IMG/VR virus record: IMGVR_UViG_3300020152_000020
Coordinates: 1-64,000 of that record
Strand: one strand, 5' to 3'
DNA: 64,000 nt
From: a virus
How positions within the stretch are numbered: the first letter of the stretch is position 1; every line of letters begins with the position of its first letter. The position numbers and the translations under genes were made by a program. The notes beneath the pieces were generated by a model. It ran no database searches. It had not been told where the DNA came from and saw nothing but the letters and a program-made list of their open reading frames with translations. Shown here in pieces: positions 21,739 to 63,710 of this stretch.

Positions 21739-22286
21739 GCGCGTTAAAGATCGCAATGGAAGCGGTGCGGTACATCGTGGATCAGAAGCCGGAGCACACG
21801 AAAAAGGGCCGCTTACTGGACAACGTGACTGACGCGCAGGTCGTCAACTCCCTGCTCAGTGAGGCCAACGAGCTACACGAGGCTGTGGTGCTCAACCACA
21901 AGGAAGACGCGATCCCGTATGAAGCTGCGGACGTGCTGATCCCGATTTTCCATCTGTCCAAGCGCCGGGGGTGGTGTGAGGAAGACTTGGCGCGCTGGGT
22001 GATCGAGAAGTTGATGCTCCGGCACCACCTGTCGGAAGAACAGAAAGCACACATGACGGAGCTACTGGCACGGGTGGTCGCGGCTGACGAAGTTATGCTC
22101 CGGGTGGCGGTGGCTCTCCCCGTGCTTAACCTTGTGTTAACGCGGGCCGGGGTGAAAGACATTCCCCGTGCTGTGGGGCTGCTCACGGAGTTGATCGCGG
22201 ACTTCCAGCGGTGCTTTCCTGAAGTGGTCGCTGAAGCGAAACGGCGCGCGGAACAAAAAGAGAAGCCGGGAAGCTCTGAAGCCTGA
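21735..22286 (+). CDS. MazG-like nucleotide pyrophosphohydrolase
   Basis: 183 residues, GTG start in a GTGA overlap. SLLSEANELHEAVVLNHKED followed by YEAADVLIPIFHL matches the MazG core E-x2-E-x-E ... E-x2-D, where the acidic residues bind Mg. MazG-type enzymes hydrolyse dNTPs or alarmones. The fit is weaker than for the second such gene at 44363. It ends the recQ unit before the AT-rich gap. Confidence 0.5.
   Translation: MSALKIAMEAVRYIVDQKPEHTKKGRLLDNVTDAQVVNSLLSEANELHEAVVLNHKEDAIPYEAADVLIPIFHLSKRRGWCEEDLARWVIEKLMLRHHLSEEQKAHMTELLARVVAADEVMLRVAVALPVLNLVLTRAGVKDIPRAVGLLTELIADFQRCFPEVVAEAKRRAEQKEKPGSSEA
22126..22140 (+). promoter_or_regulatory. Operator-like palindrome, degenerate copy in gene
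   Basis: TTAACCTTGTGTTAA, one mismatch from the symmetrical form at 10367. Confidence 0.45.
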
Positions 22287-23270: not shown

Positions 23271-23285
23271 TTGACAGTGTGTTAA
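23271..23285 (+). promoter_or_regulatory. Operator-like palindrome before UvsW-like gene
   Basis: TTGACAGTGTGTTAA, 18 bp upstream of the GTG at 23304. It contains a perfect -35 hexamer but no convincing -10 follows at 16-18 bp. Confidence 0.65.
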
Positions 23286-25040: not shown

Positions 25041-25221
25041 GCTCGCGTTGCTGCTGATCGCCGGGTTGTCGTATTTGTTGGGAGAGGGGCCACAACCATG
25101 CTTCAAACTGCCGTTAACCGCAAACCCAGAGCCGCCGAAGGCATACCGGAATGTTACGGGGTATCTTTTTCCGGTGAGTCTCGAAAATGTGGGGTGTGTC
25201 CTGTCCGCGATGCCTGCGTGA
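24883..25221 (+). CDS. XRE-family helix-turn-helix protein (overlapping gene)
   Basis: 112 residues from the GTG at 24883, with GGGGG eight bases upstream. The sequence LGLAVRTLRERAELSQSDVA, then LCHRNQVSLCEKGENFKLAL and LIAGLSYLLG follow the XRE/Cro-repressor pattern throughout (L-R-x3-E-L-S-Q-x2-V-A ... S-x2-E-K-G-E). It overlaps the helicase tail by 158 bp and the next gene by 124 bp, so only 57 bp are unique to it; nevertheless the HTH match is too good for chance. Its stop codon lies inside an operator-like palindrome. A candidate regulator. Confidence 0.6.
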   Translation: MNKLNRRNESRVLGLAVRTLRERAELSQSDVAILYGLCHRNQVSLCEKGENFKLALLLIAGLSYLLGEGPQPCFKLPLTANPEPPKAYRNVTGYLFPVSLENVGCVLSAMPA

Positions 25222-26066
25222 CACAATGTCAACGGTGGCTGCTCCGGGCGTCCCTGTCGGAGCGGCTGAAGGTGCTCGAAAAGAGCATGGTGATTTCGAG
25301 TGAGACGTTGAACTTGCCGCAGCTTTACACGCGCCTGTACGAGCAGCACTACGGAACGCGGGATTGTCCTGATCTGGTCACTGGGGCGGCGGCGTTCGGG
25401 GCTTTTGGCTGGGTGGATCGGTTCTGCCGGGAGAACGACATCGACCCGGCGCTGTGGATCACGGCCCAGATGCACGGCATGAAGATGTTTCTCGACAAGC
25501 AGCGGGAGTCTGGCGGGCACTGCCCGTACTTCCGCATCAACATGCTTTGTGGGGACAAGGCGAAGGTTCGCTACAACGTTTATCTGCGGATCGCGTACCG
25601 CCGCTTCCGGCACGTCGGGGTTGACGTGTTCAACGGGCGCACGGATTTGACGAAGCTCTGCGTCGAGTTGAAGGAAGACGAAGAACGGATCGGCGCGTTC
25701 TATTGCATGAACGTGGTCGAGGGGCATCCGGTGTCGTGGCGCGAGTGTGTCAACGTTTGCGAGGCAGGCGAGTTGTGGCGCGCGGTTCACGAAGTGCCGG
25801 GCATCGCTTCGATGAAGAAGCTGACTGAACTGCGCCAGACGTACGACATGGAAACAATCAAGCGGTTGAAGACGCTTGCCACGCTGCGGGCTGCTGTCGC
25901 AGTCGCTTCCCGGTACGCGTATGACCTTGCTGATCGGATCGGTTATCGCGATCCGTTCCTCTGGAATGACTTCGCAATGCTCTTGCTCCGGCTGTACGGC
26001 GGCGAGAAGATTACACCTGTGAATAAGGTAAAGGGGATCGCTGGAACTGAGTGGAGAGGGGCGTAA
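25098..26066 (+). CDS. Unknown protein with Cys cluster, upstream of replicative helicase
   Basis: 322 residues. N-terminal cluster KCGVCPVRDACVTQC is a probable zinc or Fe-S site. The rest is alpha/beta without known motifs (ITAQMHGMKMFLDKQRESGG; LRIAYRRFRHVGVDVFNGRT). It shares a TAATG junction with the helicase gene, so a helicase-loading or accessory role is possible from position alone; no similarity to gp59 or DnaC is visible. Confidence 0.55.
   Translation: MLQTAVNRKPRAAEGIPECYGVSFSGESRKCGVCPVRDACVTQCQRWLLRASLSERLKVLEKSMVISSETLNLPQLYTRLYEQHYGTRDCPDLVTGAAAFGAFGWVDRFCRENDIDPALWITAQMHGMKMFLDKQRESGGHCPYFRINMLCGDKAKVRYNVYLRIAYRRFRHVGVDVFNGRTDLTKLCVELKEDEERIGAFYCMNVVEGHPVSWRECVNVCEAGELWRAVHEVPGIASMKKLTELRQTYDMETIKRLKTLATLRAAVAVASRYAYDLADRIGYRDPFLWNDFAMLLLRLYGGEKITPVNKVKGIAGTEWRGA
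25218..25232. promoter_or_regulatory. Operator-like palindrome at XRE stop codon
   Basis: GTGACACAATGTCAA; the TGA stop of the XRE gene is at bases 2-4, and the site is also inside the gene at 25098. Confidence 0.55.
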
Positions 26067-27618: not shown

Positions 27619-27633
27619 ATGACATTGTGTTAA
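27619..27633 (+). promoter_or_regulatory. Operator-like palindrome between helicase and 27667 gene
   Basis: ATGACATTGTGTTAA in the 95-bp gap, 33 bp before the next ATG. A CCCGCATAGCGCG segment just upstream resembles the hairpins found before other operator-promoters. Confidence 0.65.
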
Positions 27634-29798: not shown

Positions 29799-30869
29799 AT
29801 GGGTCTTAAAGAACGGATGGCGCAGGGCGTTAGTGCAGTGGTCGAGGCTCCCGGTTTTTGCTTCGATCAGCCACCTGTCCGGCGCTTCGCTGAGATTGCG
29901 GCTTTCCAGTCGGCGATCAAATCTCAGAGCGATTGCACCGCTACGGTCGATGTTGACACGAAGTCATTCGTCGGGATCGACATTGACGGCAAGGTCCACA
30001 ATTCCTCGTGGCGGCTGTCTCCGGCTGCGTTCGGCGATCTGTGCCACTGGACGAAGCTCCCCGTCGCGTTCATCAAGCGGCTGGCGAAAACCGACGAGCA
30101 GCTTGCGCTCGAAGTCGTCGAGTCCTGCATTGATCACTGGTTCCACTCTGGACCACCCAAGCAGTTTGTGATCGACACCACCACGGGCCGCGTTGACGGC
30201 ATCGTCGGGAAAGAGTCGTATGCTCCCATCGCGAACAAGGACGTGGTGGATTTCGTGTTCTCCGCTACTCCCGACCTGAAAATCTGCGAGGGCTGGCTGG
30301 CCGGGCCGAACATGCGTCTGACGGCGGTGCTGGGCACGAAGCCCGCTGAACCGCGTAAGGGCGACATTGTCCATATCGGCACGGCGGTCGAAAATTCGAT
30401 CAACGGTGACTGCTCGTTGAAGGTGTGCGATTATGCGAATCGTCTGGTCTGCACCAACGGCATGACGGCGCGCGAAGGGTTCCACATGGAACGGATCGTG
30501 CATCGCGGCGACATTGAGGCCAACACGATCAAGGCAATCATTCGGTCAGCTACGCGCTCTGAGCAAATGGTTCCGCTCATGGCGAAGGCTGCGGCGCATC
30601 TGGTCAACGAGAAGGAAGTCCGGGCGATCAAAGGGTTCCTGTCGGAGCAGGCGAACGGCGGCTCCGAAGCGTTCTTCAAAAAGGTCGCTGAGAAGGCGAT
30701 GGACGAGGCCAAGACCGAAGGCCGCGACCCGGATGAAGTGACTTTGTGGAACATCGTCAATGGGATCACTGAATCAGCCCACGATACGTCGTCCCTTAAT
30801 CGTCGCGTCGAGATTGAGGCTTTGGGATATCGGACACTTGTCAAATTCGGGGCTGTACTCAATGCGTGA
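29799..30869 (+). CDS. DUF932-like phage/plasmid protein
   Basis: 356 residues; ATG at 29799 with AAAGGAACGG upstream, start MGLKERMAQG. The body matches DUF932: a beta domain, VDGIVGKESYAPIANKDVVD, an NMRLTAVLG strand, and DYANRLVCTNGMTAREG with the typical V-C-x-N-G turn, then a helical C-terminus. This family is common in phages and plasmids and often near recombination genes; its function is not established. It has its own promoter. Confidence 0.65.
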   Translation: MGLKERMAQGVSAVVEAPGFCFDQPPVRRFAEIAAFQSAIKSQSDCTATVDVDTKSFVGIDIDGKVHNSSWRLSPAAFGDLCHWTKLPVAFIKRLAKTDEQLALEVVESCIDHWFHSGPPKQFVIDTTTGRVDGIVGKESYAPIANKDVVDFVFSATPDLKICEGWLAGPNMRLTAVLGTKPAEPRKGDIVHIGTAVENSINGDCSLKVCDYANRLVCTNGMTAREGFHMERIVHRGDIEANTIKAIIRSATRSEQMVPLMAKAAAHLVNEKEVRAIKGFLSEQANGGSEAFFKKVAEKAMDEAKTEGRDPDEVTLWNIVNGITESAHDTSSLNRRVEIEALGYRTLVKFGAVLNA

Positions 30870-31472: not shown

Positions 31473-32276
31473 ATGCCGAACGATTTGGATTCAGTGTTTT
31501 GCCCGTCCTGCGGAATGAAGACGCACCTTACCGCGTCTGGCCGAAGCATCTGTCCGAACTGTCTGGACCTGAAAGCAAAGCCGTACACGCTCGACCTGTC
31601 GCTCCCTGTGCTGCTTGAGGCTCCGATCCCGCCGACTGAGAACCTGAGTTGCACCGTCTGTACGGAGCGCGCGACGCGGTATATCATCATAGCTTCGCAC
31701 CGCCCGGTGTCGCTGCTCTGCGAACTGCATTACAAAATGTTGCTCACGCAGGAAGTTGAGCGGTTCAAAGCGGGTGCAGCGGCGATGATGGGTCAGGTGA
31801 CGAAGGCCGCGAGCATGTTCGATTTCGTGGCGCTTGAGATTTGCCTGCTCTCCATGATGTCGCTGCGGGACGCCGGGAAGAACGCGCAGTTCCGGGATGC
31901 GTACACTGCGGTCCCGCTACCGGACGCTCCCGCTCCCAACCTTCAAAACATCGGCACGCAGACGGGCCGGATGCAGTCTGTGGTGCCGAACGAATCGGGG
32001 ACAGCCAAGCCAGCGCGCCCGGTTCACTGCCCGCGCTGTGCGCAGGAACGCGGCGTTGCGATCCCGAAGGAATGCCCGCACGTGTCGCCGAACAAGGGCG
32101 GGTGCTGGTATTGCTGGATCGCTGATAACAAGTTGGTCTTTTGCAACGAATTCGATACGTATATCCATATCGACTGCATCAAGGCGCAGTTGGCAGCGTT
32201 GCCGCCCGGAACTGAAGACCCGGAACTTGCGGTGATCGCGGCGGAATTCAAGGAAGCTCTGGCTGAGGGCGGTTAA
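31473..32276 (+). CDS. Multi-zinc-finger protein
   Basis: 267 residues. N-terminal zinc ribbon (VFCPSCGMKTHLTASGRSIC, then PNC), second site SCTVCTERATRYI, helical middle, and a C-terminal set with CPRCAQERG, KECPHVSPNKGGCWYCWIAD and FCNEF ... CIK. Several metal sites suggest a nucleic-acid or protein adaptor. Its TAA stop lies within the operator palindrome at 32273. Confidence 0.6.
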   Translation: MPNDLDSVFCPSCGMKTHLTASGRSICPNCLDLKAKPYTLDLSLPVLLEAPIPPTENLSCTVCTERATRYIIIASHRPVSLLCELHYKMLLTQEVERFKAGAAAMMGQVTKAASMFDFVALEICLLSMMSLRDAGKNAQFRDAYTAVPLPDAPAPNLQNIGTQTGRMQSVVPNESGTAKPARPVHCPRCAQERGVAIPKECPHVSPNKGGCWYCWIADNKLVFCNEFDTYIHIDCIKAQLAALPPGTEDPELAVIAAEFKEALAEGG

Positions 32277-32287
32277 CACAATGTCAA
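32273..32287. promoter_or_regulatory. Operator-like palindrome joining stop and start codons
   Basis: TTAACACAATGTCAA: TAA (bases 2-4) stops the preceding gene and ATG (bases 9-11) starts the next. Confidence 0.75.
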
Positions 32288-36327: not shown

Positions 36328-36342
36328 TTGACATTATGTTAA
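36328..36342 (+). promoter_or_regulatory. Operator-like palindrome before Dda-like helicase
   Basis: TTGACATTATGTTAA, 12 bp before the ATG at 36355, with the ribosome site AAAGGGGGG starting at its right end. Confidence 0.65.
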
Positions 36343-38084: not shown

Positions 38085-39323
38085 ATGCCTAAGAAAGTGT
38101 CCGCCGAAGTTCTCAACAAGTTGCGCAGCCAGCAGAAGGAAATGGGTGGTGGTTTAATTATCACCAACAAGAACTTCACCAAGCTCCGCTGCCGCATCCT
38201 GCCCATCGCCGAAGACGCTCCCGGTAAAGAGTACATCGGCCTGTACTGCGAGTCGCTGAAGAAGGGCACCACGTCGCCCCGCACCTTCGGCAATAAGTGC
38301 CCCGTGATGGATTACATCGACAAGGTGAAGCGCACGGGCGAGAAGGACGAAAAGGAACACGTCAAGAACTACGTCAACATCCAGCGCGAATACTGGATGG
38401 GCGTGGTGTCGCAGGAAGATCGCGACACCCGTGAGTCGAACGCCGTGGCGATCCGCATTCTGTGCGCGAAGCGTTCGGTGTACGAAGAAATCATCAAGTT
38501 CATGATGGACGAAGATGACGGCGAAGACATCACTGATCCGAAGGAAGGGCGCGACATCCGGGTGAAGAAGGAAGGCTCCGGGATGGACACGCAGTGGACG
38601 GTGAAGTTCCTCGACCGCGAGCCTGTGTCGAACGACGAAGACTACGTCTCCGCGTTCGTCGAAGCCGCCAAGGGCTTCAACGTCGAAGACCACTTCTTCA
38701 AGGTGGACTATGACACGTTGGGTGAGATTTACACCAACCTGACGGGTGAGCCGATCCCGGATGAATACCTCGAAGGCGTTGACACAAAGTCATCCGGCAA
38801 AAAGTCGGGCGGCAAGGTGTCGAAGGTGGTCACGAAGGACGACGACGAAGACGACAAGCCCGCTGCTGCTCCGGCCAAGTCGAGCAAGCCCGCTACGGCT
38901 GGCCCGGCGAAGAAGAAGACGGTTGAAACCGAACCGGAACCCGAAGCCGACGAGGCTGCTGAGTTCCCGCGCGAAGGTGCTCGCTGCTCGTTCAAGGACG
39001 CGGACGGCAACGACATCGAAGCCGAAGTGCTCAAGCAGAACGAAGACGGTTCGTGGGACGTGAAGGACACCACGGGCGAAGTCTGGGGCGTCAACGCGGA
39101 CGATCTGACGGAGATCGCGGCGGAAGAAGCGGAACCGGAAGCCGAACCCGAAGCGGAAGAAGAAGCGCCCGCTCCGGCCCCGGCTAAGAAGGGTCCGGTC
39201 GCGAAGGGCGGCGGTACTCCGGCTGCTCCGGCGAAGCCCGCCACTCCGGCTGGTCCGCGCAAGCCGACCCCGACGAAGGCGTCCGGTTCGATCAAGGATC
39301 GTCTGGCTTCGGCCAAGAAGTAA
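38085..39323 (+). CDS. gp32-like single-stranded DNA-binding protein
   Basis: 412 residues, AAAGGGG before the ATG. The core resembles T4 gp32: NFTKLRCRILPIAEDAPGKE, GNKCPVMDYIDK (zinc-site region), YWMGVV, then PKEGRDIRVKKEGSGMDTQW, the OB-fold loop typical of gp32. Beyond residue 240 an acidic Pro/Ala-rich tail contains a small SH3/Tudor-like repeat (GARCSFKDADGNDIEAEVLK) and ends KASGSIKDRLASAKK, echoing the N-terminal motif of UvsX. It coats ssDNA and organises the replisome. The tail is much longer than in T4. Confidence 0.85.
   Translation: MPKKVSAEVLNKLRSQQKEMGGGLIITNKNFTKLRCRILPIAEDAPGKEYIGLYCESLKKGTTSPRTFGNKCPVMDYIDKVKRTGEKDEKEHVKNYVNIQREYWMGVVSQEDRDTRESNAVAIRILCAKRSVYEEIIKFMMDEDDGEDITDPKEGRDIRVKKEGSGMDTQWTVKFLDREPVSNDEDYVSAFVEAAKGFNVEDHFFKVDYDTLGEIYTNLTGEPIPDEYLEGVDTKSSGKKSGGKVSKVVTKDDDEDDKPAAAPAKSSKPATAGPAKKKTVETEPEPEADEAAEFPREGARCSFKDADGNDIEAEVLKQNEDGSWDVKDTTGEVWGVNADDLTEIAAEEAEPEAEPEAEEEAPAPAPAKKGPVAKGGGTPAAPAKPATPAGPRKPTPTKASGSIKDRLASAKK
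38779..38793. promoter_or_regulatory. Operator-like palindrome, one mismatch, in gp32-like gene
   Basis: TTGACACAAAGTCAT differs at one position from the copy at 18576. Confidence 0.4.
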
Positions 39324-39406: not shown

Positions 39407-39805
39407 ATGCTCAAGCCCGGCGATAAAGTCGCTTTGTCACTTAACATCTCAGTCGAGATTGCGAAGTACAAAAGCGTCAAACCACACGCCTCTCTCACCC
39501 GCGTCTTCCCCGAAGGTGCCGACGAAGAAACGTTCCTGTCCGAATGCGAGACCGCGCTGCGCCGTATGGTGATGCGCGGTGTTCTCATGCAACTGGACGT
39601 GGAGAACGACCTCTACGACGCGCTGGGTGCGGAACCCGACGTTGAGAACTTGGCGAAATTCTGCAAGAAGGAGTTAGGATATGTCGCTCAAAGACCGCAT
39701 GTTGAAATCGAAGGCGGAACCGAAGCCGGAGCCAGCGCCGGAGTCGGACGTGGTGCTGACGCCCAAAGCGCCGCCCGAAAAAAAGGCCCCGTTAAAAAAG
39801 GGTAA
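39407..39805 (+). CDS. Hypothetical protein upstream of UvsX
   Basis: 132 residues; ATG at 39407 with GGAAGGAA upstream. LKPGDKVALSLNISVEIAKY opens a beta domain; a helical part (FLSECETALRRMVMRGVL) follows; the Gly/Ala tail ends KKGPVKKG. The last 125 bp overlap the UvsX-like gene in another frame. It is probably a small replisome or recombination accessory, judged by its neighbours and tail motif. Confidence 0.6.
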   Translation: MLKPGDKVALSLNISVEIAKYKSVKPHASLTRVFPEGADEETFLSECETALRRMVMRGVLMQLDVENDLYDALGAEPDVENLAKFCKKELGYVAQRPHVEIEGGTEAGASAGVGRGADAQSAARKKGPVKKG

Positions 39806-40877
39806 AACGCAGGTCCCCTACGCGCAGGCTGTGGTGGATAAGCTGAAGAAGAAGCTCACGTCGAAGAAGGCCGAAGCGTCGAATGTCTCGCTGCTCTCCG
39901 GTGGCGAGGTTTTGTCTGACGTGTCGGAGTGGATTCCGACCGGGTTTCCGCCGCTGGACAAAATCATGGGCGGCGGTTGGGCTGTCGGGCGCGCGACGGA
40001 GTTGTTCGGAAAGGAAGGCTCCGGCAAGTCGGCGCTCTGTCACCGCGCGATCAAGCAGTGTCAGGACATGGGCGGCATGGTCATTTACATCGACTTCGAG
40101 AACGCCCTCGATTCGGACAAGATGGAACAGATCGGGATTGACCCGGATCGACTGATTTACTGCACGCCCGACTACGTTGAACAGGCGTGGGACATCGTGT
40201 GGGAAGCCATTGACCACATGAAGCAGTTCCCGCCCGAAGCCCCGACGCTTATCATCTGGGACTCTGTAGCGGCTTCGGTTCCGAAGGCTGAACTGCAAGA
40301 GGAAACGGCGGAAAACTCGCACGTCGGCCTGCTCGCCCGCGCAATGGCGAAGGGGTGCCGGACCATGTACCGCGCGATTGCGAAGGTCCGCGCGCACATG
40401 ATTTTCGTGAACCACATGACGTTCAAGATCGGTGGCAACTCCCGCTTCCCGGAAATCATCACGCCGGGCGGTGTCGAGGTTAAGTACGCGGTGTCGGCGC
40501 GCGTGCAGACTTCGATCCGGCAGCGGATCAAGGGCAAGGATGACGGCCCGTCTGGTTACATGATCGCGTGCAACACGCACAAATGCCGCTTGTTCCCGCC
40601 GCACCGAAAGGCGAACTGGGTACTGGACTTCAAGTACGGCCCGTCCCCGGAAATGACTGCACTACACTTGATGATCGCGGCGGGTGCGATTAAATCTGTG
40701 GGGCAGGGTGCGTACGTCGGTTCGTGGTCGAAGAAGCAGTTCACGAAAGACAACTGGATGTCCCGGCTGGAAGAAGACCCTGAGTTTAAGGCTGCGGCTC
40801 TGGCGACCTTCGAGGAAGGCGTGAAAAGCGGAAAATTCCCCGTCACGATTGATGACGCAAGCGAGGACGACGATTAG
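39681..40877 (+). CDS. uvsX: UvsX/RecA-like recombinase
   Basis: 398 residues, AAGGAG before the ATG. N-terminal tail MSLKDRMLKSKAEPKPEPAP and KKAPLKKGKTQ, then PTGFPPLDKIMGGGWAVGRA, ELFGKEGSGKSAL (Walker A near 110), VIYIDFENALDSDK, TLIIWDSVAA (Walker B), HMIFVNHMTFKIG (L2 region) and TPGGVEVKYAVSARV. This is the RecA fold as in T4 UvsX. It would carry out strand exchange for recombination-dependent replication with the gp32- and UvsY-like proteins upstream. The acidic end EDDD is like that of RecA. Confidence 0.88.
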   Translation: MSLKDRMLKSKAEPKPEPAPESDVVLTPKAPPEKKAPLKKGKTQVPYAQAVVDKLKKKLTSKKAEASNVSLLSGGEVLSDVSEWIPTGFPPLDKIMGGGWAVGRATELFGKEGSGKSALCHRAIKQCQDMGGMVIYIDFENALDSDKMEQIGIDPDRLIYCTPDYVEQAWDIVWEAIDHMKQFPPEAPTLIIWDSVAASVPKAELQEETAENSHVGLLARAMAKGCRTMYRAIAKVRAHMIFVNHMTFKIGGNSRFPEIITPGGVEVKYAVSARVQTSIRQRIKGKDDGPSGYMIACNTHKCRLFPPHRKANWVLDFKYGPSPEMTALHLMIAAGAIKSVGQGAYVGSWSKKQFTKDNWMSRLEEDPEFKAAALATFEEGVKSGKFPVTIDDASEDDD

Positions 40878-40927: not shown

Positions 40928-40956
40928 TTGACATTGTGTTAACCGGGGGGTAAGTT
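40928..40956 (+). promoter_or_regulatory. Promoter overlapping an operator palindrome (ParB-like gene)
   Basis: TTGACATTGTGTTAA (40928-40942) supplies the -35 TTGACA; 17-bp spacer; -10 TAAGTT at 40951. A CTCGCG/CGCGGG hairpin with an A-tract (about 40902-40922) lies just upstream. Confidence 0.7.
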
Positions 40957-41044
40957 TCGGATGTCGCAGTTGGGGTTTCAGGGTTCACAAAGCAAATGTC
41001 GCGGTGGCAGTCCACCGTAAATGCTGGCAGGGGTGGGAGCGTGG

Positions 41045-41059
41045 TTGACACAGCGTCAA
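41045..41059. promoter_or_regulatory. Second operator copy before ParB-like gene
   Basis: TTGACACAGCGTCAA, one mismatch, in the leader of the ParB-like message, 103 bp downstream of the first copy's centre plus a few bases. A GCCCGG/CCGGGC hairpin and AAGGCCACAAA follow. Confidence 0.55.
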
Positions 41060-41103
41060 TCGCCCGGCTCCGGGCAAGGCCACAAAAAATGGAGAAAATC
41101 ACC

Positions 41104-42225
41104 GTGGCTGTAACAAAGAAGAAAAGTCTCGACGAGGGCAAGGGTGCGGCAGCGGTTGCCGAACAGCCGACCATTCACGGCGTGCTGGTCAATTCGGGCG
41201 ACATCAAGCACGGCGGCACGGCGAAGAAGCCGTTCGTCTGCCTGCTGAACCGCAAGGTCATTCACGTGCAGAAGGGCTTCAACCCGCGCACGAGCGGTCT
41301 GGGCGAGATCGACACGCTCGCGGAGTCGATCAAGAAGGACGGTCTGCTGTCTACTCCCGTCGTTCGCCCGGACGCCGACAAGCCGGGGCACTTCCTGCTG
41401 GTCGCTGGCGAGCGCCGCCTCAAGGCGTGCGATCTGATCGGTCTGGAAGAAATTCCGGTCCAGATTCGCACCGACCTGACGGGCGATGACGACAAGGCGA
41501 AGGCTGTCGCCGTCGCGGAAAACTCCGAAGACGGGCGCACCAACCTCAATTCGATTGAAGTCGGTCGCGTCTGCAAGGACCTCGAAGACAAGGGCTGGAC
41601 CGTGGCGCGCATCGCGTCGGAGTGCGGTCTGCATCCGATGAAGGTCCGGCGCTGTCTCACGCTGGTCAACGCGCCCGAAGACGTTGTGAAGAAGGTGGAG
41701 AAGGGCGAAATCTCCATGATCGCCGGGCTGGAACTGGCGAAGCTCGACGACGACACCCGCAAGAAGATCAAGGGCGATCTGACGGCGGAAACGTCGGCGG
41801 CGGAAGTGAAGAAGCTCGCCAAGGCGGCGGCGAAGGAGAGCGAGGGCGCTACGGACGGCGCTGGCAAGCCGAACCAGAAGAAGACGGGTAAGGCGCGCGA
41901 CGCGGCGCTGTACACGTGGCAGGGGTCGAAGGCGAAGCAGGCCAAGATCGCGGAACTGGCTTATTACATCGCCAACGCGGGCGAGGACAAGGGCACGGGC
42001 GACTGGCACGAACTGCGCGGCTCGCTGGCGGCGCTGCTCTGGGATCGCGGCGACCTGACGGAGATCATGCTCCCGAACGCGGAGAGCGAGAAGCCCGCCG
42101 ATAAGAAGGCGCTGAAGAAGTTCGAGGAACTGGTCGAGAAGGAAGCGGCCAAGCACACGCCGCCCGCTGTCGAGGGCGAGGGTGCCGAAGCCGAACCGGA
42201 AGAAGCGGCGGCGGGGAAGAAGTAA
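41104..42225 (+). CDS. ParB/KorB-like DNA-binding protein (no ParA)
   Basis: 373 residues from the GTG at 41104, chosen because GGAG lies nine bases upstream; an in-frame ATG at 41089 is the alternative. ParB core: FNPRTSGLGEIDTLAESIKK, VAGERRLKACDLIG (the CTP-binding G-E-R-R box near 100), AENSEDGRTNLNSIEVGRVC (second CTP-binding box) and the HTH WTVARIASECGLHPMKVRRC. A long Lys/Ala/Glu-rich C-terminal part ends in EEAAAGKK. No ParA gene is present. Two operator-like palindromes lie between the preceding gene and its start, so autoregulation and a KorB-like repressor role are plausible inferences. Confidence 0.8.
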   Translation: MAVTKKKSLDEGKGAAAVAEQPTIHGVLVNSGDIKHGGTAKKPFVCLLNRKVIHVQKGFNPRTSGLGEIDTLAESIKKDGLLSTPVVRPDADKPGHFLLVAGERRLKACDLIGLEEIPVQIRTDLTGDDDKAKAVAVAENSEDGRTNLNSIEVGRVCKDLEDKGWTVARIASECGLHPMKVRRCLTLVNAPEDVVKKVEKGEISMIAGLELAKLDDDTRKKIKGDLTAETSAAEVKKLAKAAAKESEGATDGAGKPNQKKTGKARDAALYTWQGSKAKQAKIAELAYYIANAGEDKGTGDWHELRGSLAALLWDRGDLTEIMLPNAESEKPADKKALKKFEELVEKEAAKHTPPAVEGEGAEAEPEEAAAGKK

Positions 42226-42279: not shown

Positions 42280-42297
42280 ATGCGAAAGGGCGACTAC

Positions 42298-43290
42298 GTG
42301 ACTCCGATCCTGATTGACGGCAACAATCTGATTAAGCGCGCCTGTATGGCGTCGGCTCTCGACGACCTGAAGGCTGGGGGCGTCTTCACCGGGGGTATCT
42401 ATGGGACGCTCAACTCGCTCGCGTCGTTCCTGAACATGCCTGAAGTCATGGCGGGGCCGATCTGGTGCTTCATGGACGGGGGCACGCCGCCCTTCCGGTT
42501 GAAGCTGCTCCCTGAGTACAAGTCGAAGCGCGCGGAGAAGCGGGACTTGCTCCCGCCCGCTGAACAGAAGAAGTGGCTTCAGCAGTTCGTGCTCTCCGGT
42601 GAGATGCTGGAATTGCTGGGGGTGTCCTGCATCAAGTACAAGAACTTCGAGGCCGACGACGTGGTGGCTGCGGCTGTCCGGCTCTGCGTTGAAGCCGGGC
42701 ACGTCCCGGTGGTGGTGTCCAGCGACAAAGACTTGTGGCAGGTTGTCCGCATGGGTGCGGTCGTCTACGATCTGGCAAACGACCGTTGGGTCATGGACGA
42801 GAACTTCGAAGAACTGGCTGGCACGCGCCCGGAGACATACCTGCTTTATCGTACGCTGGTCGGTGACACGTCGGATTCGATTCAGGGCTGTCGCGGTTGT
42901 GGCAAAGGGACGGCTCCCAAGGTAATCGCGGAGTTGCATGAGGCGCTGGGTGACGATCTTTACGGGTACGATCCGCTGGCGCAGCTTGATTTCGTCCGCG
43001 CGGTTATCACTGAGAAGCCGGAGAAGGAACGTAAGGCGTACGAGCGCAATTTCCTCGACGACTACGGGCGGCTCGTGAACGTGATGAAGGGAATCGACCT
43101 GTCGGCGTCGTTCACTGACATCGACGATCTGCGGGCGAAGATGCAAACGCGGCTCCCGGTCCAGATGAAGAAGCTGCTGCAACTGGCCGTCAAGCTGAAG
43201 TTCAGTTCTGTCATGGGTTCCCCACAACGCTACATTCGCCCGTTCAGCGAGGCACAGGAACGCTGCAAGCAGCCCGTGTTCCCGGCTTAA
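42298..43290 (+). CDS. 5'-3' exonuclease, FEN/T4 RNase H-like
   Basis: 330 residues from the GTG at 42298 with GAAAGGG upstream; an in-frame ATG at 42280 abuts the terminator and has no ribosome site. PILIDGNNLIKRA, CFMDGGTPPFRLKLLPEYKS, NFEADDVVAAAVRLC and VVVSSDKDLWQVV carry the metal-binding Asp/Glu residues of the FEN family. It would remove RNA primers and flaps behind the polymerase, which itself lacks a 5' nuclease domain. The TAA stop sits in an operator palindrome. Confidence 0.85.
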   Translation: MTPILIDGNNLIKRACMASALDDLKAGGVFTGGIYGTLNSLASFLNMPEVMAGPIWCFMDGGTPPFRLKLLPEYKSKRAEKRDLLPPAEQKKWLQQFVLSGEMLELLGVSCIKYKNFEADDVVAAAVRLCVEAGHVPVVVSSDKDLWQVVRMGAVVYDLANDRWVMDENFEELAGTRPETYLLYRTLVGDTSDSIQGCRGCGKGTAPKVIAELHEALGDDLYGYDPLAQLDFVRAVITEKPEKERKAYERNFLDDYGRLVNVMKGIDLSASFTDIDDLRAKMQTRLPVQMKKLLQLAVKLKFSSVMGSPQRYIRPFSEAQERCKQPVFPA

Positions 43291-43301
43291 CACAATGTCA
43301 A
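43287..43301. promoter_or_regulatory. Operator-like palindrome at exonuclease stop codon
   Basis: TTAACACAATGTCAA with the TAA stop at bases 2-4, 32 bp upstream of the -35 box at 43333. Confidence 0.7.
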
Positions 43302-44338: not shown

Positions 44339-44353
44339 TTGACACTGTGTTAA
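44339..44353 (+). promoter_or_regulatory. Operator-like palindrome before MazG-like gene
   Basis: TTGACACTGTGTTAA, 9 bp before the ATG at 44363; its last bases are part of the ribosome site AAGGGGG. Confidence 0.7.
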
Positions 44354-46419: not shown

Positions 46420-47429
46420 AAACGGCTGGGCGATGGGTGGTGACTGCGGACCTTCAGTTCGACGAGCACGCGAGCCTGTCTACGCTCACGCCGTCCGGGG
46501 TCACGTCGCGGTTGAAGGATATGATCGACTGCTGGCACTGGATCATGGCGACGGCGATTAAGCGGAACTGCGAAGGCATCATCGTCATCGGCGACATCTT
46601 CGATTCGCGGACGGTGATCGACTTGTCTGTGCTGGATCAGGTCTGCCGGGGGTTCCATGCCGCTCATGAGAAGGGGCTGCGGCTTATCATCGTCGCGGGA
46701 AACCACGACAGCTACCTGCGCTCCCCGAAGATGAACAGCCTTCAGGTGTTCAAGGGGTACGCGCAGGTTGTGGAAGTGACGCACGTGGAAGACGGGATGG
46801 GCTTCGTCGCTTGGACCGAAGACATCACGGCGCTGCGGTCGGGCATTGACACTGTGTTAAAGGGCGGGGCGAAGTACCTGTTTACGCACGTGTTGCTGCG
46901 GGGTGCGGTCACTGGCGGCGACAAAGGCGTCCCTGTCGATGCGCTCCGGCCTGAGAAGTTCGAGCAAGTGTTTCTGGGCGACGTGCACGATCCTCGCGAG
47001 ATCACGGAGAACGTTCGCTACGTTGGCTCCCCGTTGCAGATCAATTATGGCGACGCGGGTGGTTGGCGCGGCATCGTGGTGTTTGATCGCAAGTCTGGCG
47101 AGATCGAGACGGTCGAAAACACGGTGTCGCCGAAGTTCCACGTGATCGAAGACGCCACGGTCGAGGGTGTGAAGTCGAACGATTTCGTCCGGGTGAAGAC
47201 TGACGATCCTGAGATCGCGGCGGAAGCCGAAGCGGCGGCGAAGGTGAAGACGGGCTGGGTGGAGTCCACGTTCGTTGAGAAGCCGGACATCAAGCCGCGT
47301 CTGGACGTTCGCACGAGCCACGCGCATGAAGTCGTGCTCGCCCGGTACTGCACGCATCAGGGGATCGAAGAGGTTGACTCGCTCGTGAAAGTCGGCATGG
47401 AGATTATCGAGGAAGCGAAGCATGGGTAA
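46416..47429 (+). CDS. gp47/SbcD-like nuclease subunit
   Basis: 337 residues from a TTG start in a TTGA overlap. Metallophosphatase motifs: WVVTADLQFDEHA, IIVIGDIFDSRTV, LIIVAGNHDSYLR, YLFTHVLLR and VFLGDVHDP. The usual leading D-x-H is here D-L-Q; the other metal ligands are present. It forms a complex with the gp46-like ATPase at 50142 to resect DNA ends for recombination. An operator palindrome lies within the gene. Confidence 0.85.
   Translation: MKTAGRWVVTADLQFDEHASLSTLTPSGVTSRLKDMIDCWHWIMATAIKRNCEGIIVIGDIFDSRTVIDLSVLDQVCRGFHAAHEKGLRLIIVAGNHDSYLRSPKMNSLQVFKGYAQVVEVTHVEDGMGFVAWTEDITALRSGIDTVLKGGAKYLFTHVLLRGAVTGGDKGVPVDALRPEKFEQVFLGDVHDPREITENVRYVGSPLQINYGDAGGWRGIVVFDRKSGEIETVENTVSPKFHVIEDATVEGVKSNDFVRVKTDDPEIAAEAEAAAKVKTGWVESTFVEKPDIKPRLDVRTSHAHEVVLARYCTHQGIEEVDSLVKVGMEIIEEAKHG
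46846..46860 (+). promoter_or_regulatory. Operator-like palindrome inside gp47-like gene
   Basis: TTGACACTGTGTTAA, identical to the copies at 44339 and 61180. Confidence 0.65.
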
Positions 47430-47920: not shown

Positions 47921-49707
47921 TGAATTTTCATGTTCCTGTAAAACTGTTGAAGGTCGCGATCAAGCAGTGGCCGAAGGAGTTCACGAAGGACATCGTGGAC
48001 ATGTCGGAACTGTGGGGTGGCGAACGTGAGCTAACTCTGAGTGCTACGCGTCTGCCGCGCTCCCGGCTCGCTGACTTTCAGAAGCTCGCGAAGATCAACG
48101 GCGCGAATGGGCTGGCAAATAAAATCGGCCTGTACATGAATCTGATCGACAACGTGGCTGGGAAGCGTATCACACGGCTGGAAGAACTGAACACGGCGCT
48201 GAAGCTGTATCTGAAGTCGGCTCCGAATTTCTGGGTCTTTGGTGAGCAGGACGACGGGTATCCGGTTCCATTCTTTGTGTCGCATATCAAGAAGGTGGAT
48301 CGGTACAAGGACACGCCGCCGTACGTCCGCATGACGCTTCAGTTCATGGATGCCGGGAAGCCGGACGAGAGGTACGTTGACTGGGAAACGAAGGACTTGG
48401 GTAAGAACCTTGTCGAGTTGCTCAACGAGGCCGGGTATTACCGGGCGACGAAAAGTGCCATCGAGCAGTACCAGAAAGACATTGAGATTTTCAAGAAGCT
48501 CTCGCCGATGGTTGGGCAGCAGTTCACTGCTACCGGGTTCGGGTTCTTTGCTGAGGAAGGTTACGATAATCGTTTTGAGTGCTCGTCCCTCGAATGTGAC
48601 GGCCAGCCTGCCCGACTTGTGCTCGACGATCTGTCTGAGGAAAAGGACGACGATAGTTCGAGTCGCCGCTGGCGTGGTAAGTCGGTGTGTGATGAAGGGC
48701 TGGGGCTGCTGTCGTTCTGGGAGAAGGATGAAGACCCGGATGACGTTGACGAGCAGGACGAAGCGGCGAAGACCTGTGCGCTCCCGGTCCATCCGTACCT
48801 GAAATGCTTCGATCTGGTCCGGCACGAATTCGTCTGGGTCCACTGCTCGAACATGGTCCAGTATGTGTACGATTCGGAGTTGGTGGACAAGCTCGTGCTA
48901 CCGTCTGACACGAAGTCGCTGGTCAAGATTCTGATGCACGGCGCGTCGATCAAGATGGACGACATCATTAAGGGCAAGACAGGCGGCGTCATCGTGATCG
49001 CCAGCGGCCCGCCCGGCACCGGAAAGACGCTCACGGCGGAAGTGTTCTCCGAACACATTAAGTGCCCGCTGTACGTGGTTCAGTGCTCGCAGCTTGGCAT
49101 CGACGAAGAAACGGTCGAGGGGCGGCTCCGCACCGTGCTGGCGCGGTCGCAACGCTGGGGTGCGTTGCTGCTGATCGACGAGGCCGACGTGTACGTCCAC
49201 GAACGCGGTCACGACATTCACCAAAACGCGATTGTCGGCGTGTTCCTGCGGGTGCTTGAGTATTATCGCGGCATCCTGTTTATGACTTCGAACCGGGCGA
49301 CCATCATCGACGACGCGATCATGTCGCGAGCTACAGCGTGGCTGAAGTACGACTTCCCGACGCCGGACGAATTGAAGTCGCTCTGGCAGATTCTGGGCAA
49401 GCAGTACGGGGTTGCGCTGTCGGATCGCGACATCGACCTGCTGATCCGCGACTTCCCGATCCTGTCCGGGCGCAACATCAAAAATATGCTGAAGCTGTCG
49501 CGAATGCTCGCGGCGGAAAAGAAGGCAAAGGTCACGACGGACACGATCCGGTACTGTGCCAAGTTCCTTGACCTGTCTCATGGAGAACGCGCAGATGGAA
49601 AGAGCAATAACGGAGCGGTGGCAAGTGGTCGAAACCGTGTTCCTGCGAAGCGAAAAGCCGGGGGCGATGACGGACCCGACTTCTCCGAACTCGATGGTCA
49701 ACGTTGA
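47920..49707 (+). CDS. AAA+ ATPase
   Basis: 595 residues from the ATG at 47920. About 340 residues of unknown N-terminal domain (LWGGERELTLSATRLPRSRL) precede a classical AAA+ module: VIVIASGPPGTGKTLTAEVF near 360 (Walker A), LLLIDEADVYVHERG near 417 (Walker B), RGILFMTSNRATIIDDAIMS (sensor 1 and Arg finger region), and LSGRNIKNMLKLSRML (sensor 2). It resembles the BCS1/FtsH group more than clamp loaders. Role unknown; it sits between the two nuclease-complex genes. Confidence 0.75.
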   Translation: MNFHVPVKLLKVAIKQWPKEFTKDIVDMSELWGGERELTLSATRLPRSRLADFQKLAKINGANGLANKIGLYMNLIDNVAGKRITRLEELNTALKLYLKSAPNFWVFGEQDDGYPVPFFVSHIKKVDRYKDTPPYVRMTLQFMDAGKPDERYVDWETKDLGKNLVELLNEAGYYRATKSAIEQYQKDIEIFKKLSPMVGQQFTATGFGFFAEEGYDNRFECSSLECDGQPARLVLDDLSEEKDDDSSSRRWRGKSVCDEGLGLLSFWEKDEDPDDVDEQDEAAKTCALPVHPYLKCFDLVRHEFVWVHCSNMVQYVYDSELVDKLVLPSDTKSLVKILMHGASIKMDDIIKGKTGGVIVIASGPPGTGKTLTAEVFSEHIKCPLYVVQCSQLGIDEETVEGRLRTVLARSQRWGALLLIDEADVYVHERGHDIHQNAIVGVFLRVLEYYRGILFMTSNRATIIDDAIMSRATAWLKYDFPTPDELKSLWQILGKQYGVALSDRDIDLLIRDFPILSGRNIKNMLKLSRMLAAEKKAKVTTDTIRYCAKFLDLSHGERADGKSNNGAVASGRNRVPAKRKAGGDDGPDFSELDGQR

Positions 49708-49987
49708 CATTGTGTCAATTAAAACTGAGGGCGGCATGATGGTCGTCCCTCAGATGCAGAAGGCTGCTGCGGAGCACGTGGTTCGGCTACACAACGAGGA
49801 ACTGGAACACGGAGCGCGGATCACTGAAATCTGGTTGCAGCGTCGGGGCGTTGAGAACGATCCGCACGCTAAGGCTGTGGTGATGCTCCGAACGAAGGGC
49901 GGGACGTGGGTGAAGGGGCTGGAAGAACCGCTTGATGGGAACTTCAGCCATTGCCTGCATGTCCGGGCTGCGACGTTGAAGGGTTGA
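49667..49987 (+). CDS. Hypothetical protein
   Basis: 106 residues; the ATG at 49667 has GGGGG just before it and overlaps the AAA+ gene by 41 bp. NVDIVSIKTEGGMMVVPQMQ and a C-terminal beta part (AVVMLRTKGGTWVKGLEEPL). No family recognised. Confidence 0.5.
   Translation: MTDPTSPNSMVNVDIVSIKTEGGMMVVPQMQKAAAEHVVRLHNEELEHGARITEIWLQRRGVENDPHAKAVVMLRTKGGTWVKGLEEPLDGNFSHCLHVRAATLKG
49704..49718. promoter_or_regulatory. Operator-like palindrome at AAA+ stop codon
   Basis: TTGACATTGTGTCAA, symmetrical apart from the central triplet; the TGA stop of the AAA+ gene is at bases 2-4. Confidence 0.65.
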
Positions 49988-52102: not shown

Positions 52103-52117
52103 TTAACACAGTGTCAG
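52103..52117. promoter_or_regulatory. Operator-like palindrome containing a GTG start codon
   Basis: TTAACACAGTGTCAG; GTG of the nuclease gene at bases 9-11. Confidence 0.7.
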
Positions 52118-53049: not shown

Positions 53050-53748
53050 ATGGCTTTGACGGAACAGGAAAAGAACATCGTACGCCGGGCCTTCTCAATG
53101 GGTCCGGCTGCTTTGTTAGACGACGGGTACACATGGGCCAACATCGGCGATTTCCTCGCCCGCCCGGACGTTAAAGCTGAACTCGAACTGTTGCAGTCAG
53201 AGTTTAACAATCAGGACGCACTACTGACGCGCAGCAAGTTCGTCGCCAAGCGCCAACTCGCCCGGTTCGCACAGGGCGCTGTTGCCGTGCTGGGTCAGGC
53301 TCTGGCTGGTCCGGTGTACGCCCGCGACAACAAGGGCAACATTTTGATGGACGCGCAGGGCCGTCCGATCATGCAGTCAGCCCCGCCGCACGAAATGCAG
53401 TACAACGCTGCGACGCAGATTTTGAACCGTCTGGGGGTCGATACGGACAAGCCTGCTGATCGCGCGGGTGACATGAACGTTCAGCTTTTGTTCAAGTCGG
53501 GCGAGGCGTCGGCCAAGGTTCAGATCACGACCGATCCGGCGTTGCTCACGTCTGAAGAACAGGCGCTGTCGCGCGAGCGCGTGCGCAACGCGTTCGAGAA
53601 GCTGGCAAAGCGTCTGCCCGAAGCGCAAGCCAAGATCAAGGCCGCGCTGGGGAATCCTCAGCCGGAAGAAGCAGCCGCGAAGAAACCAAAGAAGAAATCC
53701 AAGGCCAAGCCGAAGCCCGTTAACACAGTGTCAACCACTACGGAGTAA
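53050..53748 (+). CDS. Terminase small subunit (by position)
   Basis: 232 residues; ATG at 53050 with CCGGGGG upstream. Helical N-terminal part with TWANIGDFLARPDVKAELEL and ALLTRSKFVAKRQLARFAQG, which could be a helix-turn-helix and coiled coil; Lys-rich C-terminus (AAAKKPKKKSKAKPKPVN). It lies 5 bp before the large terminase gene, the usual place of the small subunit, which binds the packaging site. No direct sequence similarity is claimed. Confidence 0.6.
   Translation: MALTEQEKNIVRRAFSMGPAALLDDGYTWANIGDFLARPDVKAELELLQSEFNNQDALLTRSKFVAKRQLARFAQGAVAVLGQALAGPVYARDNKGNILMDAQGRPIMQSAPPHEMQYNAATQILNRLGVDTDKPADRAGDMNVQLLFKSGEASAKVQITTDPALLTSEEQALSRERVRNAFEKLAKRLPEAQAKIKAALGNPQPEEAAAKKPKKKSKAKPKPVNTVSTTTE
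53720..53734. promoter_or_regulatory. Operator-like palindrome at end of small terminase gene
   Basis: TTAACACAGTGTCAA inside the last codons, 20 bp before the large terminase GTG. Confidence 0.65.
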
Positions 53749-55870: not shown

Positions 55871-57730
55871 ATGGCGCTTCCGCAGAATGATCCCAAAGCT
55901 CCCCCCGTGGGCCAGCCGCACACGGTAAACTGGTTTTATCGTTTGTTCGGTCTGTATGATCGGCAGTCGCATCCGTTCGACTTCGACACTGATCAGCAGA
56001 ACGAAGACGCCGCCGCGAAGAAGACAGCGGAATGGTGGTCCGATCAGTTCAAGCTGGGGCAGGATCGCAAGGAACGGTATCGCATCTTCGACGAGATGGA
56101 TGCGTCCGGTCTGGCCGGGGCGATCCTCGATTTGTTCGCCGAAGAAACGACGCAGATCGACTACGAAAAGGGCCGCGCGGTCTGGATCGAGTCGAAAAGC
56201 AACGAGATGATTAAGCGCGGCGACGAATGCCTGCGCAATCTCATGGTTGAAGACAAGCTCTTTGCCATCGTCCGGGGCATGTGCAAGTACGGTGATCACT
56301 TCCGCCGCCTGATTTACAGCGCCAAGAAAGGCGTGCTGGGCTGGCAGCAGGCTCCCGTCGATAAAACGCACCGCCTCGATGATCGGTACGGGCGTCTGAT
56401 CGGGTTCCGTGAAGACGGGAAGACGTTCCGGGGCGCGCGCAAGCGCCCTGTGTCGTGGCCGTGGGATTATGTGCACTTCCGCATGATGGGTAAGGACGAG
56501 AACACGGGCTACGGTACGTCCATCCTTGAACCGATGTTCAATCCGTGGCGGCGGCTCATGCTGGCCGATGACGCTGTGTTAATGTACCGCCTGCGTCGCG
56601 CGCCGGATCGCAACATGGTGCTGGTCGATGTCGGCAACATGGAAGAACACGAGGCGCTGGAATACGTGAACGCGTGGCGCAAGCGGTTCCGCAAACACGA
56701 GTTCGTGGACCCCGCGTCGCCGAACTATCGCAAGCAGTACAATCCGCTCACTCCGCTCGAAGACTTCTTCATCCCGATTCGCGGCGGCGAGAACAACAGC
56801 CGGGTCGAGAATCTGTCTGGGTCTTCGAACGCCGACCAGTTATTCGACCTGAACTACTACCGCGACACGTTCTTCGGTGCGGGCAAGGTCCCGAAGGCTT
56901 ACATGGGTTTCGAGGGCGACGTGAACGCGAAGGCGACGTTGATCCAGCAGGACGTGCGCTTCGCCCGCACGTGTAAGCGCGCCCGGAAGCACGCGCTGTA
57001 CGGTCTGCGGCAGACGCTCGACATCCACTACACGCTGCTGGCCGACAGCGAGACGGATACGAAGTACGACTTCTCCCGCCCGGAAAACAAATACCTGATC
57101 CAGATGACGCCGATCTCGTACCTCGACGAGTTCGAACGGCTGGAACTGATTCAGTTGCGTTACCAGATCGTCGAGGCAATGGCGAACGTCGCCACGTCCA
57201 TGCAGATTGACGTGCGGGTCTGGGCGACGTACATCCTGCTCGAATACGCGAAGCTGCCCGAAGACTTGGTGATGAAGCTGATCGCCAAGACGCCGGAAGG
57301 TCCGCTTGCGCCGGGTGGGATGATGCCGCCCGGTGGCGCTCCGGGTGAAGAACCTGCGTTCCCGCCCGAAGGTGGCAGCGCCAACGCGGGCGTGCCGCCT
57401 GCTGAGGCCGCGCGCTTCAAGCGTCCGATCTGGATGCAGATAACCGAAAACATGGGTAAGCGCGGCTTCTATCCCTTGAGCGAAGCAGAGAAGACGCAGA
57501 TCGCGCGCCTGATGCACGAGTCGTGTGCGCTACGGAAGGTCGTCGGCGACATCACGGAGTACCACATTGACGACCTGATGAACTTCCAGACTGATCCGTC
57601 GCTGCTCCCGGTGATCTCCAAGGGCGCGGAGTTGACGGACGTGGTGAACGAAGACACTGAAGTCATCCTGCTCCGGGAAGACCTTGCGGCTCTGAAATCC
57701 GCCACCCTCAACGAAGAAAAGAAGAAATAA
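55871..57730 (+). CDS. Portal protein
   Basis: 619 residues, directly after terL. LYDRQSHPFDFDTDQQNEDA, then DEMDASGLAGAILDLFAEET, IVRGMCKYGDHFRRLIYSAK, SWPWDYVHFRMMGKDENTGY and YGTSILEPMFNPWRRLMLAD are the pattern of large (T4 gp20-type) portals: a helical wing, K-Y-G-x-x, and G-x-S-x-L. Pro/Gly-rich loop near 480-520 and helical C-terminus. It forms the dodecameric DNA gate of the capsid. Confidence 0.88.
   Translation: MALPQNDPKAPPVGQPHTVNWFYRLFGLYDRQSHPFDFDTDQQNEDAAAKKTAEWWSDQFKLGQDRKERYRIFDEMDASGLAGAILDLFAEETTQIDYEKGRAVWIESKSNEMIKRGDECLRNLMVEDKLFAIVRGMCKYGDHFRRLIYSAKKGVLGWQQAPVDKTHRLDDRYGRLIGFREDGKTFRGARKRPVSWPWDYVHFRMMGKDENTGYGTSILEPMFNPWRRLMLADDAVLMYRLRRAPDRNMVLVDVGNMEEHEALEYVNAWRKRFRKHEFVDPASPNYRKQYNPLTPLEDFFIPIRGGENNSRVENLSGSSNADQLFDLNYYRDTFFGAGKVPKAYMGFEGDVNAKATLIQQDVRFARTCKRARKHALYGLRQTLDIHYTLLADSETDTKYDFSRPENKYLIQMTPISYLDEFERLELIQLRYQIVEAMANVATSMQIDVRVWATYILLEYAKLPEDLVMKLIAKTPEGPLAPGGMMPPGGAPGEEPAFPPEGGSANAGVPPAEAARFKRPIWMQITENMGKRGFYPLSEAEKTQIARLMHESCALRKVVGDITEYHIDDLMNFQTDPSLLPVISKGAELTDVVNEDTEVILLREDLAALKSATLNEEKKK
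56568..56582 (+). promoter_or_regulatory. Operator-like palindrome, degenerate, in portal gene
   Basis: ATGACGCTGTGTTAA, one mismatch in the left half. Confidence 0.4.
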
Positions 57731-59166: not shown

Positions 59167-59194
59167 TTGACATTGTGTCATTCCCGTGTAACTT
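59167..59194 (+). promoter_or_regulatory. Promoter overlapping an operator palindrome
   Basis: TTGACATTGTGTCAT (59167-59181) supplies -35 TTGACA; 16-bp spacer; -10 TAACTT at 59189. Upstream TCGCATAACGCGG plus AAAATATAG resembles the hairpin/A-tract before other promoters. Confidence 0.7.
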
Positions 59195-60232: not shown

Positions 60233-60544
60233 ATGGGTATCGCGATTTGGCTGGGCGTCACATTGTTGGGTGTGTTAAAGTGGGGGCCGGGTGACGAGTC
60301 TGCGCTGTGCTGCGCTCTGGGACTGGTCGCCGGGCTTTTGTACGTGAGCGCCGTCTCTCAGAAAGGGGTTGACACAATGTCACAGGAAACTGACAAACCG
60401 AAGCCAAGGCCGGGGCCGCTGGTCGAAGACGAAACGGTCGTGGGTGGCTACGACGAACAGACGGGCGCGGCGGTGATCCGGCCCAAGACGCCGGACGGTC
60501 GCGCGGACGAATCGACGCGGCCTACGGATCGCCGCGAGAAGTAA
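60233..60544 (+). CDS. Membrane protein with alternative internal start
   Basis: 103 residues from 60233: two hydrophobic segments (MGIAIWLGVTLLGVLKW; CCALGLVAGLLYVSAV) then a Pro/Asp-rich soluble tail. An in-frame ATG at 60377, inside an operator palindrome and with GAAAGGGG before it, would make a 55-residue soluble form (MSQETDKPKPRPGPLVEDET). Either one gene with two products, or a small membrane protein fused to a separate gene. Confidence 0.5.
   Translation: MGIAIWLGVTLLGVLKWGPGDESALCCALGLVAGLLYVSAVSQKGVDTMSQETDKPKPRPGPLVEDETVVGGYDEQTGAAVIRPKTPDGRADESTRPTDRREK
60369..60383. promoter_or_regulatory. Operator-like palindrome containing an in-frame ATG
   Basis: TTGACACAATGTCAC; ATG at bases 9-11, same register as at 13061, 32273, 52103 and 63707. 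Confidence 0.7.
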
Positions 60545-61135: not shown

Positions 61136-61180
61136 CCGGGTGTGCGTCGAGAGGGTTCGGCGCGCGCCCGGTTTTTCTTT
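61136..61180 (+). terminator. Terminator directly before an operator
   Basis: CCGGGTGTGCG pairs with CGCGCGCCCGG (two wobbles), then TTTTTCTTTT; the operator palindrome begins at the last T. Confidence 0.75.
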
Positions 61181-61194
61181 TGACACTGTGTTAA
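61180..61194 (+). promoter_or_regulatory. Operator-like palindrome, consensus copy
   Basis: TTGACACTGTGTTAA, 15 bp before the ATG at 61210. Contains TTGACA but no good -10 at the usual distance. Confidence 0.7.
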
Positions 61195-63581: not shown

Positions 63582-63710
63582 GGGTATTACATCAACGTCT
63601 GGTTCAGACGACTCCGGGTTAAGTTCGTGCACGGTACGATTAATATGTGGGAAGAGAATAACGCTGACGGCACCGACACGGAGTGGGTGGCGAGCTACCG
63701 AAGGGAATGA
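63582..63710 (+). other. In-frame extension behind a stop codon
   Basis: Following TGA at 63579 the frame reads GYYINVWFRRLRVKFVHGTI and continues to TGA at 63708, which touches the next operator. It could be stop read-through, or a small gene from GTG 63627 or ATG 63645. The peptide composition looks natural. Confidence 0.35.

Follow-up and report, generated by a model that had tools for sequence, protein, structure and literature searches.

An orphan ParB-family protein and a genome-wide, evenly spaced palindrome array in a clade of uncultured phages

In the 95,015-bp IMG/VR virus record G000, whose first 64 kb form the window, a ParB-family gene without a detectable ParA partner occurs together with a gapped palindrome that is repeated at fairly even intervals along the sequence, within genes as well as between them. 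Such a pairing, with about 20–50 palindromes per genome, is seen in a group of large uncultured phages. On balance, we favor the reading that a ParA-less ParB clamp is loaded at these regular palindromes and has a mainly architectural role; ParB binding, CTP-dependent sliding and the role itself are what we infer from the sequence. A phage ParB-type DNA clamp would thereby work without ParA: its dimers would recognize a 15–17 bp palindrome, close around the DNA with CTP and slide off, and the palindromes would be loading stations whose fairly even intervals let ParB cover the whole viral chromosome. The protein may then coat, compact or separate replicating phage DNA before packaging, or shield it. 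The even spacing, the sites within coding sequence and the occurrence across a clade are new with respect to the earlier note on this DNA, and no earlier report of evenly spaced phage ParB arrays was found in the open-access literature.

The parB locus of the window contains the following features:
39681..40877, plus strand: RecA-like gene, conserved upstream neighbor of parB (Pfam RecA, 2e-39; synteny)
40928..40942, no strand: TTGACATTGTGTTAA, a site upstream of parB that is retained at this position in G001 and G002
41045..41059, no strand: site upstream of parB, TTGACACAGCGTCAA (palindrome scan, matrix)
41104..42225, plus strand: orphan ParB-family protein, 373 aa, GTG start (Pfam ParB_N and HTH_ParB; TIGR00180; AF2 model)
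41626..41649, plus strand: recognition-helix region of the ParB HTH, GLHPMKVR, codons 175–182 (alignments); site position 6 changes together with H177 and K180
42280..43290, plus strand: exonuclease-like gene, conserved near parB (phrog_107; synteny)

The open reading frame at 41104–42225 matches Pfam ParB_N (5.6e-10) and HTH_ParB (1.2e-6) and exceeds the NCBIfam TIGR00180 cutoff; its product thus combines the ParB_N CTPase fold and the ParB HTH domain by which the ParB/Spo0J family is defined (TIGR00180, PF02195 with PF17762). Both CTP boxes, GERR and ENSEDGRTNLNSIE, are present, and the GERR and EN...R motifs also occur in the first ortholog set. The earlier note had described a ParB-family protein with an HTH and both CTP boxes, no ParA, and two palindromes upstream of the gene, all of which the present analysis bears out. 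CTP use is nevertheless not certain, because box III is longer by two inserted residues than in canonical ParB. The glutamate of GERR is substituted in the ParBs of G021 (L309; GFRR) and G025 (L328; GARR), which may alter CTP use there. The best matches of the ortholog profile were solved ParB, Noc and Spo0J chains. An AlphaFold (AF2) model of the G000 protein (mean pLDDT 75.7) matches KorB, ParB and Noc structures, with KorB (8qa9_B) reaching the top TM-score among full-length structure matches (0.77 by target); as modeled, the fold matches KorB no less well than it does other ParBs.

For ParA, AAA_31 had no match in the 95-kb record or in G001 and G002, and CbiA was not found in five relatives; since the records of the clade are all metagenomic and possibly incomplete, a missing ParA or integrase is not proof of absence. 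A search for a ParA-binding motif in the G000 ParB gave none, and the parS sequence TGTTTCACGTGAAACA had no match at ≤3 mismatches in the 95-kb record. The gene is flanked by the RecA-like and exonuclease genes within a replication–recombination module. Elsewhere in the window, a family A DNA polymerase is fused to a uracil-DNA glycosylase-superfamily domain (32483–35605), and two phage HU-type proteins, one HU-like and one probably HU-HIG-like, are encoded at 52605–52919 and 57733–58254, with counterparts in G001 and G002. A tmRNA gene was predicted by ARAGORN at L009 9256–9628 (record 73256–73628), with the tag ANPFAQQSRVAA.

Scanning of the window with ≤3 mismatches allowed returned 29 palindrome matches versus 0.48 in dinucleotide shuffles, and none of 100 shuffles reached 29. 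With the refined matrix, 30 sites were found in the window and 52–53 in the 95-kb record, where chance predicts about 0.3; the earlier figure of about 27 sites was therefore essentially right. An unbiased count of gapped palindromes in G000 ranked the same motif at the top. Motif strength and site set were refined iteratively, genome by genome. The site flanks in G000 hold no further signal. Similar GC-rich hairpin-like sequences (e.g., CCCGCGTTATGCGGG) adjoin several intergenic sites, at window positions 15982, 27593, 40902, 43290 and 59140. Two other identities of the motif were rejected: TTGACA as a promoter −35 box, as no conserved −10 lies at the proper distance and the flanks are uninformative, and matS (GTGACRNYGTCAC), whose half-sites are similar but whose spacer is different. 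Besides the two sites upstream of parB, the matrix places the following palindromes, given without strand, in the window:
2360..2374: array site
4600..4614: array site
6822..6836: array site, intragenic
7360..7374: array site, intragenic
10367..10381: array site, intragenic
13061..13075: array site
16008..16022: array site
18576..18590: array site
21076..21090: array site, intragenic
22126..22140: array site, intragenic
23271..23285: array site, counterpart in G002
25218..25232: array site
27619..27633: array site
29953..29967: array site (weak), within DUF932 gene
32273..32287: array site over the ATG of the ORF at 32281; counterpart in G001
36328..36342: array site, 1 bp after a gene end
38779..38793: array site within gp32-like gene
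43287..43301: array site, counterpart in G002
44339..44353: array site, counterpart in G001
46846..46860: array site within SbcD-like gene; counterpart in G001 also intragenic
49704..49718: array site
52103..52117: array site, counterpart in G002
53720..53734: array site, intragenic; counterpart in G002
56568..56582: array site within portal gene
59167..59181: array site, counterparts in G001 and G002
60369..60383: array site over a possible ATG
61180..61194: array site, counterpart in G001
63707..63721: array site over an ATG

Four proteins (portal, polymerase, ParB, terminase) served as queries for relatives and delineated a clade of phages, all uncultured. Orthologs of ParB were identified in G001/G003, G002, G010/G011, G012, G013, G016, G020, G021, G023 and G024, and a more distant one in G025. 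Named phages included no close match to G000, and alignment of ParB to bacterial genomes found no relatives there; the exact 15-mer gave mostly single matches over IMG/VR but recovered G004. In G000, G001, G002, G021, G023 and G024, a gapped palindrome was the top motif found de novo. The half-sites differ by phage (TTGACAC, KTRACAC, TTGACGC, TTGACR, AGTGACA, ATTTACGC): the de novo motifs are KTRACAC-N-GTGTYAM in G001, TTGACGC-N-GCGTCAA in G002, TTGACAC-N-GTGTCAA in G016, CTGGAC-N5-GTCCAG in G020 (5 sites), TTGACR-N3-YGTCAA in G021, AGTGACA-N3-TGTCACT in G023, ATTTACGC-N-GCGTAAAT in G024 and GTGACA-N3-TGTCAC in G025. Their geometry is common to the clade, each motif being an odd palindrome of 15–17 bp. 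Arrays are weak in the ParB-bearing G010/G011 and G012, and ParB-bearing G013 has no clear array; fragment-based motif searches of G010/G011 and G013 gave nothing clear above the low-complexity background. No arrays occur in four named phages that encode other orphan ParBs (Edwardsiella ZHS, Gordonia Kiko and Bowser, Klebsiella VLCpiS13f); phage ParBs are therefore not generally accompanied by one. In G024 (L323–L325), sites form tandem doublets or triplets at 8329, 17453 and 37935, while those of other genomes are mostly single. A distant relative, G030 (L338–L340), has another palindrome, the even GCGCAATCGATTGCGC, at 22 places within 54 kb, and contigs related to it (L271, L272, L277, L286–L288) carry GCAAT-N2-ATTGC.

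The gaps between G000 sites have a coefficient of variation (CV) of about 0.5, compared with 0.97 for random placement (P < 1e-4). This evenness is robust over a range of thresholds and fails for the few strongest sites alone; it also holds under nulls in which random sites retain the coding/intergenic split (run for three genomes) and under a null with one random site per intergenic region. All six genomes with ≥17 sites are evenly spaced (P = 2e-4, 1e-3, 2e-4, 4e-4, 8e-4 and 6.6e-3; combined P = 1.3e-13), G024 only once its tandem copies are merged. The mean interval is about 1.8 kb in G000 and 3.5–9.3 kb in its relatives. Of the G000 record, 97% lies ≤1.5 kb from a site, the reach of sliding known for KorB (PMC11790492), versus 81% with random placement; in G001 and G002 only 62–70% of bases do, so these phages would need longer sliding. 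A fragment of G019 in which parB is absent (L334, 1–17318) has 23 TGACA-N3-TGTCA sites, evenly spaced at a mean of 0.74 kb (CV 0.48).

By gene calls from a simple codon-usage script, about 40% of G000 sites are intragenic, as against 85% of the sequence being coding. The intragenic share ranges from 26 to 61% in the four genomes with the most sites, and the intergenic share is 60–74% in G000–G002 and 15 of 17 sites in G023. Intragenic sites of G000 share one reading phase, the one predicted from stop-codon avoidance, and force rare codons: 50 TTA codons were counted across the record and 13 of them fall in these sites, which make up 0.3% of all codons, and therefore selection acts on the DNA itself.

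These distributions bear on the proposal of the earlier note, a KorB-type global transcription regulator that loads at dispersed sites, slides and represses many operons, with intragenic sites as distal operators. KorB does act from distal operators by sliding (PMC11790492), and it heads the structure matches of the G000 protein. Sites are enriched between genes, one of them upstream of parB itself, and some lie tens of bp upstream of promoter-like sequences; intergenic enrichment is also expected of a regulator, though it can be explained by coding constraint. Operators tied to promoters would not, however, be expected to be evenly spaced in six genomes, nor does a −10 signal appear near the sites, many of which are within long genes, and the KorB operator OB, TTTAGC-S-GCTAAA, found no match. 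Site positions are kept between G000 and its collinear relatives for 7 of 19 and 7 of 17 sites in the collinear core, versus about 1 by chance, but most sites are not retained at orthologous promoters: the one ahead of parB is alone in keeping a clear link to one gene start across the three collinear genomes (G000, G001 and G002). Loading stations fit even spacing, intragenic placement and position turnover better than operators do; the retention of about a third of positions exceeds what pure spacing selection requires and counts against the loading-station reading. The architectural reading also draws on the place of parB in the replication–recombination module, on the lysine-rich N-terminal tails of several orthologs and on the two HU-type proteins. 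Given the even spacing, the intragenic sites, the clade-wide arrays, the site near parB and the helix changes described below, a KorB-style promoter regulator is not the best reading, and we consider it unlikely. What stands of that proposal is an orphan ParB with dispersed probable sites and a KorB-matching fold; regulation as the main function does not, given the even spacing, the intragenic sites and the lack of a −10. It is possible that some promoters are regulated, parB's own foremost, and parB may regulate itself through the nearby site.

The position of the sites relative to parB and the recognition helix both point to ParB as the binding protein. A site lies ≤200 bp from parB in 8 of the 10 phages with a motif: it is <200 bp upstream in G000, G001, G002, G016, G021 and G024 (6 of 7 tested; chance about 1e-7), whereas the sister phages G020 and G023 have it downstream, at distances of 77 and 96 bp. 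G012 has a weak site inside parB, and no site was found near parB in G025. Where the helix has His at the H177 position, site position 6 is A; the helices without His, in G002 (GHQT) and G024 (NHQK), pair with G, and G021, which retains His and has Thr at the K180 position, shows mixed A/G. This co-variation gives a Fisher P of 0.036, with phylogeny ignored, as the ParB tree is unresolved, and with two divergent cases. Because of the site near parB in most relatives and the co-variation, ParB probably binds the palindromes. Alternatively, another phage or host protein could bind them, with ParB incidental, and the clade does have further conserved genes without known domains; however, neither the proximity of sites to parB nor the helix changes would follow from it, and among the annotatable conserved genes of G000 ParB alone belongs to a family that binds dyad sites. 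We regard such a binder as improbable.

In a Noc-like membrane tether, ParB clamps loaded along the phage DNA would attach that DNA to the membrane or stop host cells from dividing. Noc, itself a ParB relative, loads at sites scattered round the chromosome (PMC8429893), and the ortholog profile scores almost equally on Noc and ParB. The N-terminal tails of the orthologs, by inspection, are lysine-rich (several) or plain, with no obvious membrane helix, and this role seems quite improbable. The ParB N-termini of G020 (L320) and G023 (L317) are long, lysine-rich and histone H1-like, with AKKKTARK repeats. A prophage repressor/stoperator network as in Cluster A mycobacteriophages, whose repressors have phage-wide dispersed sites (PMC9283540), is very improbable, since a search of G000, G001 and G002 for tyrosine integrases (PF00589) yielded none, the replication and packaging gene set is of lytic type, and the sites here are palindromic, unlike the asymmetric, oriented stoperators of Cluster A (PMC4351075).

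CTP clamps of the ParB type have established uses at centromeres (ParABS), in division control (Noc) and in plasmid regulation (KorB). If true, an orphan phage ParB with an even, genome-wide array would be a new use of this switch, organizing a viral chromosome. A fuller version, which we hold tentatively and at slightly less than even chances, would be a phage chromatin: a ParB clamp sufficient by itself would coat the replicating DNA end to end from loading palindromes of its own, which diversify and are set at a selected interval over the whole genome. The ParB–CTP switch would then dispense with both ParA and a centromere, and repression would not be its primary use. The architecture of the array is conserved while its half-site sequence diverges, and the clade would supply natural protein/site pairs for studying ParB specificity.

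Of the characterized proteins, KorB and Noc are closest to the G000 protein. Like canonical ParABS, it has ParB_N, HTH_ParB and boxes II and III; unlike it, no ParA, ParA-binding motif or parS sequence was detected in G000, and the sites are genome-wide rather than clustered near an origin. KorB of RK2, a CTP-clamp regulator, shares the ParB fold and dispersed palindromic operators. It has 12 operators positioned relative to promoters and a partner, KorA, and slides to promoters as far as 1.5 kb (PMC11790492); G000 differs in its many more sites, their even spacing and their frequently intragenic position. Noc of Bacillus subtilis is a ParB paralog without a ParA-binding motif that acts as a CTP clamp at palindromes scattered on the chromosome (PMC8429893, PMC12704722). 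The G000 protein resembles it as a ParB relative with dispersed sites and no ParA-binding motif, but the Noc site (NBS) has a different sequence and sits on the host chromosome, and neither an obvious membrane-binding helix, by inspection of the ortholog tails, nor a division role was seen here.

The closest cultured parallel is offered by the Cluster O mycobacteriophages (Corndog, Firecracker). Corndog has 34 copies of a dispersed 17-bp palindrome, TGTTCGG-N3-CCGAACA in Cluster O, about a third of them intragenic; they lie mostly off promoters and were judged unlikely to regulate transcription, their function being left open (PMC4351075). Cluster O has no integrase and no parAB, and its authors named a ParB-like protein as one of three candidate repeat binders (PMC4351075). 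In Firecracker, the Cluster O genome analyzed here, gp94 has a ParB_N domain and its alignment extends through the HTH region. Its 38 sites are rather evenly spaced in the left 47 kb (CV 0.54, P = 0.02) but not over the whole genome (P = 0.40), because of a dense cluster at the right end. Firecracker differs from G000 in an unrelated half-site, in a 502-aa protein of weak similarity and in the 361 bp that separate the gene start from the site closest to it. Cluster O nevertheless shares with the G000 clade dispersed odd palindromes, partly intragenic, together with a ParB-like protein, and the reading of such palindromes as ParB loading stations offers a testable answer to the question, still unanswered in 2015, of what role the 17-bp repeats play.
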